A DNA stretch of 64,000 nt from Citreicella sp. C3M06 (GTDB taxonomy: Bacteria > Pseudomonadota > Alphaproteobacteria > Rhodobacterales > Rhodobacteraceae), in contig NZ_JAHKQA010000072.1 of the NCBI RefSeq assembly GCF_018860705.1, positions 186,001-250,000 on the forward strand, in the 5' to 3' direction. The notes below the pieces were generated by a model. That model worked only from the letters and a program-made list of their open reading frames with translations. It made no database searches and was not told the DNA's origin. Shown here piece by piece: positions 47,983-54,604 of the stretch (the stretch's first letter is position 1; every line of letters starts with the position of its first letter). The translations under genes were made by a program, and so were the position numbers.

Positions 47983-48001
47983 CCGACAGTGTCGGGTCAA
48001 A
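47983..48001. promoter_or_regulatory. TGTCGG dyad and shared leader motif upstream of ctrA
   Basis: CCGACA-G-TGTCGG (47983-47995) is a perfect palindrome. It overlaps the GTGTCGGGTCAAA copy shared with the sciP leader. A dyad built on TGTCGG would suit a dimeric regulator such as SciP. Confidence 0.5.
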
Positions 48002-48007
48002 GGGACA

Positions 48008-48022
48008 GAACAAGCGGAGAAC
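48008..48022 (-). promoter_or_regulatory. LexA-box-like sequence over the ctrA ribosome-binding site
   Basis: GAAC-N7-GAAC, which reads GTTC-N7-GTTC on the minus strand, is the alphaproteobacterial LexA box. It covers the CGGAG ribosome site and ends five bases before the ctrA start. The pattern is only eight fixed bases, so about two chance hits are expected in this 64-kb window. Confidence 0.5.
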
Positions 48023-48027
48023 GGATT

Positions 48028-48744
48028 ATGCGCATCCTTCTGGTGGAAGACGACCCGACCACGTCGAAGAGCATCGAACTTATGCTAACCCATGCCAACC
48101 TGAACGTCTATTCGACCGATCTGGGCGAAGAAGGCATCGATCTGGCAAAACTGTACGATTACGACCTGATCCTGCTCGATCTCAATCTGCCAGACATCAA
48201 TGGTCACGAGGTCTTGCGGCAATTGCGCCAGTCGCGGATCAACACGCCGATCCTGATCCTGTCGGGGGCCGATGACACCGAAAACAAGATCAAGGGATTT
48301 GGCTTTGGGGCCGACGATTACCTGACCAAACCCTTCCACCGCGACGAGCTGGTGGCGCGCATCCATGCGATCATTCGCCGCTCGAAAGGGCATTCCCAAT
48401 CGGTGATCCGGACAGCCAAGATTTCCGTCAACCTTGACGCGAAGACGGTCGAGGTGGCGGGCAAGCCGGTCCATCTGACCGGCAAGGAATACCAGATGCT
48501 CGAGCTGCTTTCGCTGCGCAAGGGCACGACACTGACGAAAGAGATGTTCCTGAACCATCTTTACGGCGGCATGGACGAGCCTGAACTCAAGATTATCGAT
48601 GTGTTCATCTGCAAGTTGCGCAAAAAGCTCTCCGAGGCGACCGGCGACGAGAATTACATCGAAACGGTGTGGGGGCGTGGCTATGTGCTGCGCGATCCCG
48701 AGCCGCGCGCTGGCGACCCCCCGGCGATCGCCGCCGCCGGCTGA
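48028..48744 (+). CDS. ctrA: Cell-cycle response regulator CtrA
   Basis: The product is 238 residues. The receiver domain begins [20 protein letters not shown] with the phospho-acceptor Asp51 in [10 protein letters not shown]. The C-terminal winged helix has [18 protein letters not shown] and [15 protein letters not shown] and GRGYVLRDP, as in CtrA. The protein ends IAAAG and so lacks the exact Ala-Ala end that marks Caulobacter CtrA for ClpXP. In Rhodobacteraceae CtrA is non-essential and drives motility, gene transfer agents and related traits. The leader has CtrA, TGTCGG and LexA-like sites. Confidence 0.96.
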
Positions 48745-48795: not shown

Positions 48796-53159
<4,364 letters not shown>

Positions 53160-53230: not shown

Positions 53231-53255
53231 GTTCGCTTATGTTCTCATAAAGTTC
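53231..53255 (+). promoter_or_regulatory. LexA box with a third phased half-site, downstream of recG
   Basis: GTTC at 53241-53244 and 53252-53255 are separated by seven bases, the exact GTTC-N7-GTTC of alphaproteobacterial LexA. A third GTTC is at 53231-53234, ten bases upstream of the first, on the same helix face. It is 65 bases upstream of a 39-residue membrane-protein gene, which would be its target. Confidence 0.7.
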
Positions 53256-53285
53256 TTTACAGAACGTAAAGGAAATGAGAACAAA
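53241..53285. repeat. Nested inverted repeat over the LexA-type box
   Basis: The outer arms GTTCTCAT (53241-53248) and ATGAGAAC (53278-53285) match perfectly. An inner stem CTTTAC (53255-53260) and GTAAAG (53266-53271) also pairs, around AGAAC. The structure could form in the leader RNA or cruciform DNA and partly overlaps the box. Confidence 0.55.
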
Positions 53286-53319
53286 TAGGCAACAAACGAC
53301 AGACGAGGGAGTTTACAGA

Positions 53320-53439
53320 ATGATCAAGACCCTTTTCCGCGCGATGAGCCGCCCTGAATGCAACGTGCTTCAGGATATGATCGGCGCTCTGTGCCTTGTT
53401 GTCATCCTACTTGGGGCGCTGCATCTGCCCAGCCTCTGA
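53320..53439 (+). CDS. 39-residue membrane protein, candidate SOS-induced division inhibitor
   Basis: The product is only 39 residues, with ATG at 53320 and GAGGGAG eight bases upstream. Its first half is basic and polar (MIKTLFRAMSRPECNV) and the second is a single membrane helix (MIGALCLVVILLGALHL, 20-36). SidA in Caulobacter is a 29-residue membrane protein, SOS-induced, that blocks division at FtsW/FtsN. No sequence homology is claimed; the similarity is in size, topology and a LexA box. The ~145-base gap after the stop ends in a strong terminator. Confidence 0.65.
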   Translation: MIKTLFRAMSRPECNVLQDMIGALCLVVILLGALHLPSL

Positions 53440-53582
53440 CGTTTCGATCCGCTTTCTGCCTGCGGTCTTTCTCCCGTTAGGTCGCGCATTCCGTCCCGGA
53501 TGCGCTGCGCCTGTCCCTGCAAGGCCTTGGATCTGCCCGATCCATCATAGGTCTGTCCTGCGGGAGCAAAGATACGCCACTG
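53440..53582 (+). other. Long 3' untranslated stretch or possible sRNA
   Basis: There are 143 bases between the 39-residue gene's stop and a strong terminator hairpin at 53583. No open frame of note is present. The region may be the 3' untranslated part of the small mRNA, or a separate small RNA with its own promoter, which I cannot see. Confidence 0.35.
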
Positions 53583-53622
53583 ACCGCCGCCTTCGCTGTC
53601 CCGAAGTGCGGCGGTTTTTTTA
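53583..53622 (+). terminator. Rho-independent terminator after the small SOS-type gene
   Basis: ACCGCCGC (53583-53590) pairs with GCGGCGGT (53608-53615), with an inner CTTCG/CGAAG stem, and is followed by a run of seven T. It is one of the strongest terminators in the window. Confidence 0.9.
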
Positions 53623-53722
53623 TGCAGGGCGAAAGGCGTGCTACAAGCTGCCACGATCCCGGCCATTTATGCTGGTCAATCAGTTCCGATCAGGTGATCG
53701 CCGTCACATCTCTTGCATGGAG

Positions 53723-54175
53723 CTAACCGGCACGGGCTTCTTCGGCCGCGTGCACCGCCTCGCTTGCAGCGTCGAGCGCCAGCAGGATCGACGCATGCCG
53801 ATTTTTGTAGGTCTGCGCCGGGCGCAGCACCTCGAGCCCGTCGAAGGGCGCGGGCGGTGTCGGGCCGTCGTCCTTGAGCATGGCGCGCAGCCCGTCGCGC
53901 GCGGCGTCGATCTGCGCCGGGGTGCAGCCGATGATCGCCGCGCCAACCACCGAGGCCGAGGCCTGCCCAAGCGCGCAGGCCTTCACGTCCTGCGCATAAT
54001 CGGAAACCTTGCCCTCATGCATCGACAGATCGACCGTCACCGTCGAGCCGCAGAGCGGCGAGCGCTTCTTGACGCTTGCATCGGGCGCCTCCAGCCGCCC
54101 GGTCCGCGGAATATCGGCAGCAAGGGCAAGGATGCGCTGGGAATACAGCTTGATGAGGTCGGTCTCGGTGGACAT
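53723..54175 (-). CDS. Iron-sulfur cluster assembly scaffold, IscU/NifU-like
   Basis: The product is 150 residues with the three conserved Cys of the U-type scaffold: KKRSPLCGSTVTVD, VKACALGQASAS and IIGCTPAQID. It builds and passes Fe-S clusters in the cytoplasm. It is divergent from hisI, a gap of 69 bases. The ATG at 54175 is the first within the conserved region (MSTETDLIKLYSQRI). The SUF genes themselves are not in the window. Confidence 0.88.
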   Translation of the reverse strand: MSTETDLIKLYSQRILALAADIPRTGRLEAPDASVKKRSPLCGSTVTVDLSMHEGKVSDYAQDVKACALGQASASVVGAAIIGCTPAQIDAARDGLRAMLKDDGPTPPAPFDGLEVLRPAQTYKNRHASILLALDAASEAVHAAEEARAG

Positions 54176-54244
54176 GGCTTTCCCTTCTGGATCGTCTTTC
54201 CTAAATAGGGTTTGACGCCGCCGCTGCAAAAGGAAAATTCCGTC

Positions 54245-54604
54245 ATGAGCTTCGATCCCAAGACTTTGGTCTATGACAGCCGCGGGTTGATCCCCTGCAT
54301 CGCGCAGGATGAGACCAGCGGCGAGGTGCTGATGATGGCGTGGATGAACGCCGAGTCGGTGGCAAAAACTCTGGCCAGCGGGCGGGTGACCTATTGGTCG
54401 CGCTCGCGCGCCGCCTTCTGGATCAAGGGCGAAAGTTCGGGCCATGTGCAGGAGCTGGTCGAGCTGCGGCTGGATTGCGATCGCGACTGTCTGCTGGCGC
54501 TGGTGCGGCAGACCGGCCCAGCCTGTCACACCAACCGGCGTTCGTGCTTTTACACGGCGATCCGCGAAGGCGATGAGACGGAAATCATGGCACCGATGGC
54601 GTAA
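54245..54604 (+). CDS. hisI: Phosphoribosyl-AMP cyclohydrolase
   Basis: The product is 119 residues, the stand-alone HisI without the fused HisE. The motif TYWSRSRAAFWIKGESSGH and the metal/active segment DCDRDCLLALVRQTGPACHTNRRSCFY are typical. It opens the purine ring of PR-AMP in histidine synthesis. The other his genes are not here. Its 3' end overlaps the converging gluQ end by 20 bases. Confidence 0.95.
   Translation: MSFDPKTLVYDSRGLIPCIAQDETSGEVLMMAWMNAESVAKTLASGRVTYWSRSRAAFWIKGESSGHVQELVELRLDCDRDCLLALVRQTGPACHTNRRSCFYTAIREGDETEIMAPMA

Follow-up and report, generated by a model that had tools for sequence, protein, structure and literature searches.

A conserved membrane microprotein gene with LexA-type boxes and a structured 3′ RNA behind recG in Rhodobacteraceae

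The locus behind recG

The window (the whole stretch of 64,000 nucleotides of Citreicella sp. C3M06 DNA that was analysed) contains, in order, what we take to be ctrA, ligA and recG, followed by a new microprotein gene. The recG frame (51069-53159, + strand) has 696 codons and is the upstream neighbour of the unit described here, not a part of it; with recG as the query, the nearest named relatives were from Salipiger, at no more than 87 percent identity. All parts of the unit lie on the + strand.

The unit opens with a LexA-type direct repeat, GTTC-N6-GTTC-N7-GTTC (53231-53255), in which GTTC stands at 53231, 53241 and 53252; the initial annotation had described the same GTTC-N7-GTTC box with a third GTTC upstream of it. 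The N6 spacing in this array is not the canonical one. Immediately after the last GTTC comes TTTACA (53256-53261; TTGAC in a divergent genome), which is likely to be the -35 element, and further on a reverse LexA-type element, GAAC-N7-CAAC (53279-53293), which is likely to lie over the -10/+1 region. A consensus scan of the + strand returned no sigma-70-type promoter.

A ribosome binding site, GAGGGAG (53305-53311), precedes the microprotein gene (53320-53439), which runs for 39 codons from ATG 53320 to TGA 53437-53439, as first annotated. A longer start at 53275 (54 codons) is disfavoured because the conservation within the family begins at ATG 53320. The best 17-residue window of the product has a mean hydropathy of 2.6 and, when hydropathy was calculated over 134 loci, the helix window was without charge in 127 of them, in agreement with the single membrane helix that had been predicted. 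The basic head that had also been described is present, in the form of K3, R7 and R11, but it is weakly basic, being offset by E13 and D19. Judged from its hydropathy, the 39-residue product is probably a single-pass inner-membrane protein with its N-terminus inside.

Behind the stop codon lies the core of a structured RNA (53455-53585), supported by a covariance-model match, its fold and covariation. Its closing stem, P1 (about 53462-53477 with 53561-53577), encloses three hairpins with C-rich loops. The intrinsic terminator (about 53583-53621), which is visible in the sequence, the fold and a terminator scan and carries CTGTCC in its loop, reads ACCGCCGCC...GGCGGT and then T7. The strong terminator with which the initial annotation closed the unit therefore exists, but it starts 144 nt past the microprotein stop and is the final hairpin of a larger conserved RNA. 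Both this RNA and the reverse box had been missed, while the reading of a conserved, predicted membrane microprotein with LexA-type boxes has held.

Two neighbours deserve mention. A frame on the - strand (53723-54529), presumably an iron-sulphur scaffold, is convergent with the unit, and a similar coding sequence is found on the same side in several relatives. Further upstream, a response regulator (47989-48744), which we take from its sequence to be CtrA, has GAAC-N7-GAAC (GAACAAGCGGAGAAC) at 48008-48022, a few nucleotides upstream of the likely ATG (48028); this could possibly be a LexA site, or a chance overlap with a ribosome site.

Conservation of the frame and its promoter

The initial annotation had proposed that related genomes be searched for an intact frame and box behind recG, and both were found there. 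In a set of 80 loci chosen by recG, and hence independent of the small frame, the frame was present behind recG in 78; the two misses were L101 and L096, and in L096 the contig breaks off 239 nt past recG. When loci were instead fetched by the frame, the tail of recG was recognised upstream in 31 of 33. All 20 genomes searched within the genus match the microprotein at E 1 or better, and 255 of 295 Rhodobacteraceae genomes match its profile at E 0.01. A class-wide draw of 289 genomes gave only 4 matches, all of them Rhodobacteraceae; none of the 285 further genomes of this draw matched the profile, and the 20 of these that were listed all come from other families.

The promoter pattern was also searched for in 20 of the unmatched family genomes, where it gave 24 matches against 30 for the reversed control. 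Nine of these places were opened and in five of them (G020, G023, G042, G077 and G096) a divergent frame could be seen by eye behind GTTC-N7-GTTC; the recG tail was recognised in three of these five genomes. Since divergent frames were seen in five of the 20 unmatched genomes searched in this way, the family count of 255/295 is a lower bound and the absence in the 40 unmatched genomes is overstated. A second microprotein match occurs in nine genomes (G026, G065, G114, G123, G205, G233, G265, G285 and G311), counted among the family genomes listed; the gene is mostly single-copy.

Candidates for an origin of the gene on mobile elements were rejected. One phage match was at chance level (E 6) and was not taken as a relative, and nor was one weak match on a Thioclava plasmid (E 0.2), which falls within a hypothetical gene of 104 codons next to one that is ParB-like.

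The peptides of the family are mostly 39-40 residues long and share the pattern D..G...LHLP. D19, G22, L34 and P37 are invariant in 26 and in 38 aligned members; among 131 aligned peptides, the D and one L are present in all 131, the G and the P in 130. Furthermore, H or Y precedes the final L-P in 122 of the 131. The median dN/dS of the frame is 0.46 (interquartile range 0.36-0.57; 2929 of 8515 pairs had a usable synonymous distance), with values of at least 0.5 in 39 percent of the usable pairs; because synonymous sites are near saturation and single pairs reach 2.6, this counts as moderate evidence for selection. Searches of Pfam and NCBIfam with 26 members gave no credible match, the weak ones having an E of 0.07 or worse. 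A 44-residue version with a four-residue, HAAK-like insertion in the head occurs in 11 of 134 loci, mostly from Marivita (L033, L034, L037, L041, L044, L047, L051, L054 and L068 are among them).

Promoter elements were counted in the 170 nt upstream of the frame at 134 distinct loci; as this set includes loci fetched by the frame itself, the counts show promoter conservation given the frame. GTTC-N7-GTTC was found in 130 loci, the full GTTC-N6-GTTC-N7-GTTC array in 121 and the reverse element GAAC-N7-CAAC in 127, so that the exact forms of the first and the last are absent from four and seven loci, respectively. Both kinds of box are present in 123 loci, and in 118 of these the last GTTC lies 27 bases before GAAC. 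In the divergent genomes G020 and G096 the reverse element is a perfect GAAC-N7-GAAC; G023 has a perfect GAAC-N7-GAAC too, at another distance. Leisingera loci L081, L085, L087 and L094 contain extra GTTC copies, with four to six repeats at steps of 10-13 bases. These comparisons confirm that the conservation of the microprotein and of its box is real, and that this is not a chance box.

The box alone proves nothing. Although the window contains 6 copies of GTTC-N7-GTTC, a number attained by one of 100 shuffles (mean 1.4), there are 113 sites in the whole genome against 134 for the reversed control, with no enrichment, and a genome-wide significance of the box on its own was therefore rejected. 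The same type of box is, on the other hand, found before lexA in 19/19 and before recA in 19/19 genomes of the genus, and because of this the microprotein gene is likely to be under LexA control. An identical box offset in recA and in the new gene was also considered and rejected, since the recA offsets, measured in the 17 of 19 genus loci with the upstream half, range from 27 to 31, as against the 27 seen in 118/123 loci here. LexA of R. sphaeroides is able to act on recA both as an activator and as a repressor.

The structured RNA behind the frame

The region 53437-53625 folds with a z of -4.82 relative to shuffles, and the same region gave -4.45, -3.90 and -5.52 in three other genera. A terminator was recognised in 129 of the 134 loci; the median fold z of these 129 is -4.25 and 124 of them are below -2. 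With the terminator removed, the core has a median z of -2.24, with 73 of 126 loci below -2, compared with a median of -0.47 and 13 of 126 below -2 for recG coding DNA of equal length. Inspection by eye of 30 folded sequences revealed a common layout of an unpaired 5′ end, a long closing stem, two to three hairpins and the terminator. Together with its terminator the RNA is around 170 nt long, branched, and has C-rich loops (CUGUCCC/CUGCCU). The motif UGUCC occurs 1.76 times per RNA, compared with 0.32 in shuffles, and is mostly unpaired in 140 of 227 occurrences, against a background in which 42 percent of all bases are unpaired.

In an alignment fitted to the structural model, 88.6 percent of cells pair and two-sided changes are seen in 31 of 32 pairs, with a covariation score of 0.411 that falls to at most 0.116 when the structure is slid; because the alignment was fitted to the model, these counts lean towards the structure. 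An alignment made from sequence only has double changes in 11 of 26 pairs, and from it RNAalifold recovers just the closing stem and the terminator. The model-based route was chosen because this joint RNAalifold alignment missed the inner hairpins. The + strand is favoured, since G-U cells number 114 against 51 A-C cells. The structure of the 3′ RNA is thus supported by covariation. Rfam release 15 gave no match at its cut-off on either strand, the four weak matches (E up to 10) being far below it.

Twenty sequences were used to build a covariance model; at E 0.01 it matched the RNA in 66 of 93 sources, among them 12 seeds, and in the genome of the window the single match reported was 53455-53585. 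A second RNA model, used with strict filters, matched 120 of the 295 family genomes, fewer than the 255 with the frame; in the class-wide draw its only matches were the same four Rhodobacteraceae members. For 96 of the 120 matches a frame was listed as well, and in all 96 the RNA lies 3-115 nt behind the frame on the same strand. Looser filters recovered an adjacent RNA match (E up to 0.15) in 9 of 19 previously negative genomes that bear the frame, and one weak match (G034, E 0.35) among 20 family genomes negative for the frame; they also gave chance matches that were not adjacent to a frame, with E from 0.36 to 0.98. In G219, a genome without a listed frame match, the RNA match sits behind a divergent frame (L199). 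One locus, L205, keeps the frame and the promoter and has no 3′ RNA or terminator that could be recognised by eye; it is a natural test of the protein without the RNA.

It is clear that the frame, the boxes and the structure of the RNA are conserved, as is the order in which they follow each other on one strand. A conserved structured RNA that lies behind a coding gene and ends in an intrinsic terminator, as seen here, is also the arrangement by which a 3′-UTR-derived RNA is recognised.

Proposed function and alternative readings

The arrangement suggests a mechanism in which LexA would occupy two sites, the GTTC array, which overlaps the -35 element or lies immediately before it, and the reverse GAAC element over -10/+1. 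Upon DNA damage RecA would be activated and LexA would leave the promoter, and a single transcript would then provide the 39-40-residue single-pass inner-membrane protein followed by the 3′ RNA. To this reading from sequence, a LexA-controlled membrane microprotein and a functional 3′ RNA on one SOS transcript, we give a probability of about 0.6.

From the conservation of its D..G entry and LHLP end, the microprotein may act by packing against a membrane helix of a partner. The most likely partner would be the septal synthesis complex FtsW/FtsI/FtsN, in which case division would pause during repair, as with SidA in Caulobacter; this step is less likely than not, and division inhibition of the SidA kind is proposed here by analogy only. 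The 3′ RNA would probably be a 3′-UTR-derived regulatory RNA and bind to G-rich regions at translation starts, a role to which we give a little less than an even chance, or alternatively it could protect the mRNA. The complete combination, a hitherto undescribed, family-wide SOS transcript of dual function with two LexA sites, yielding in fixed ratio a microprotein that halts the septum and an RNA whose CUGUCCC loops reprogramme translation, is rather unlikely.

The microprotein may instead be an SOS effector that is not a division inhibitor at all, but regulates a kinase or protease in the membrane (that of the CtrA phosphorelay, or FtsH, for instance), or helps to protect the envelope during damage. 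Membrane enzymes are the targets of many short single-pass proteins, and the apparent ctrA gene is found some 5 kb upstream in the window. Furthermore, LexA and CtrA targets overlap in Dinoroseobacter, according to in silico sites reported in the available passages of PMC6473078. No result points to a specific partner of this type, however, and we regard such an activity as possible, with the odds against it.

The promoter could also be read by another regulator that recognises GTTC repeats, and serve a different stress response. Such a regulator would fit the unusual N6-N7 spacing, the conservation that extends beyond the GTTC halves, and the 20-base core GTTCTCAWAAAGTTCTTTAC, for which a search of the genome allowing up to three mismatches gave this one site (reversed control 0). 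Against this, GTTC-N7-GTTC/GAAC-N7-GAAC is the box found before lexA and recA in the genus, and divergent genomes have a perfect box as their second element; this leaves control by a regulator other than LexA improbable.

Just as improbable is a reading in which the transcript serves mainly as a regulatory RNA induced by the SOS response, a dual-function RNA in which the short frame has a minor role or is a by-product. The structure and covariation of the RNA would be expected of such a product, and 3′-UTR-derived RNAs behind short frames are known from R. sphaeroides (UdsC; passages of PMC9779115 and PMC8625941), but the protein is conserved at the level of single residues and L205 retains the frame and promoter where the RNA can no longer be recognised.

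The size of the protein, its hydrophobic helix and the predicted LexA control are also those of a hydrophobic SOS toxin of the TisB kind, which would depolarise the membrane and lead to persistence, with the structured RNA controlling translation. The uncharged helix in 127/134 loci and the conserved residues, which suggest a partner, argue against this, as does the absence, among Rfam models alone, of an antitoxin at cut-off on either strand; moreover, the RNA sits 3′ on the same strand. A toxin therefore seems very unlikely. That the frame arose by chance in the 3′ region of recG beside an ordinary terminator is next to impossible, for although a single box is no rarer than expected and the terminator scan gave little more than its shuffles (2 terminator-like sites against a mean of 1.4), the family-wide conservation of frame, boxes and RNA contradicts it.

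The LexA-controlled microprotein with its joined RNA, as we read the unit, can be set beside several known systems. Caulobacter DidA is a protein of 71 residues. The available passages of PMC4211646 describe SidA of Caulobacter crescentus as an SOS-induced division inhibitor of 29 residues, and DidA as SOS-independent, controlled by DriD and binding FtsN. Like SidA, the new protein is a very short, predicted single-pass inner-membrane protein of an alphaproteobacterium with predicted LexA control, and the likeness is one of size, topology and predicted control only. Unlike SidA, the new family was matched in Rhodobacteraceae only, has mostly 39-40 residues and the D..G...LHLP pattern, and is usually followed by the structured 3′ RNA. 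With DidA it shares being a small membrane protein linked to DNA damage (here by prediction), whereas control, length and presumed partner, as described for DidA and predicted here, differ. YneA, SosA and related SOS division inhibitors of Gram-positive bacteria are likewise small membrane proteins, SOS-induced there and predicted to be so here. They belong to other phyla and have other sequences.

CcaF1-CcsR of R. sphaeroides consists of a short frame with a 3′-UTR-derived RNA. For RSP_7527-UdsC of the same species, the passages of PMC9779115 and PMC8625941 give an RpoHII-dependent promoter and a UdsC of 67 nt. Like both of these, the new unit would combine a short frame and a structured RNA in one stress transcript of a Rhodobacteraceae member, and by this analogy the 3′ RNA may have a regulatory role. 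Unlike RSP_7527-UdsC, it has LexA-type boxes and a branched RNA of around 170 nt; as UdsC is RpoHII-controlled and 67 nt long, identity with UdsC/RSP_7527 was rejected.

No description of a division checkpoint that follows DNA damage is known to us from the Rhodobacteraceae, marine roseobacters included, and none was recognised among the literature listings and passages searched. Within the same kind of material, no description of a recG-linked microprotein/RNA unit was found: recG is not named in the available passages of the Dinoroseobacter LexA study (PMC6473078), whose site lists are in its supplement, and the available passages of two RNA-motif papers (PMC8632094 and PMC2864571) name no such element near recG. 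SOS-induced membrane microproteins are already known; it is this family, with its joined RNA, that is new.

The candidate gene is small enough for annotation to miss, and its 3′ RNA is an additional RNA element without a model match at cut-off in Rfam release 15. If confirmed, the unit would provide an SOS effector for an abundant group of marine bacteria and, after SidA and DidA, a further microprotein linked to DNA damage in Alphaproteobacteria; its promoter would be an SOS promoter from which a protein and a structured RNA are produced together. The unit may halt the division of the cell, or alter translation, while the DNA is under repair.
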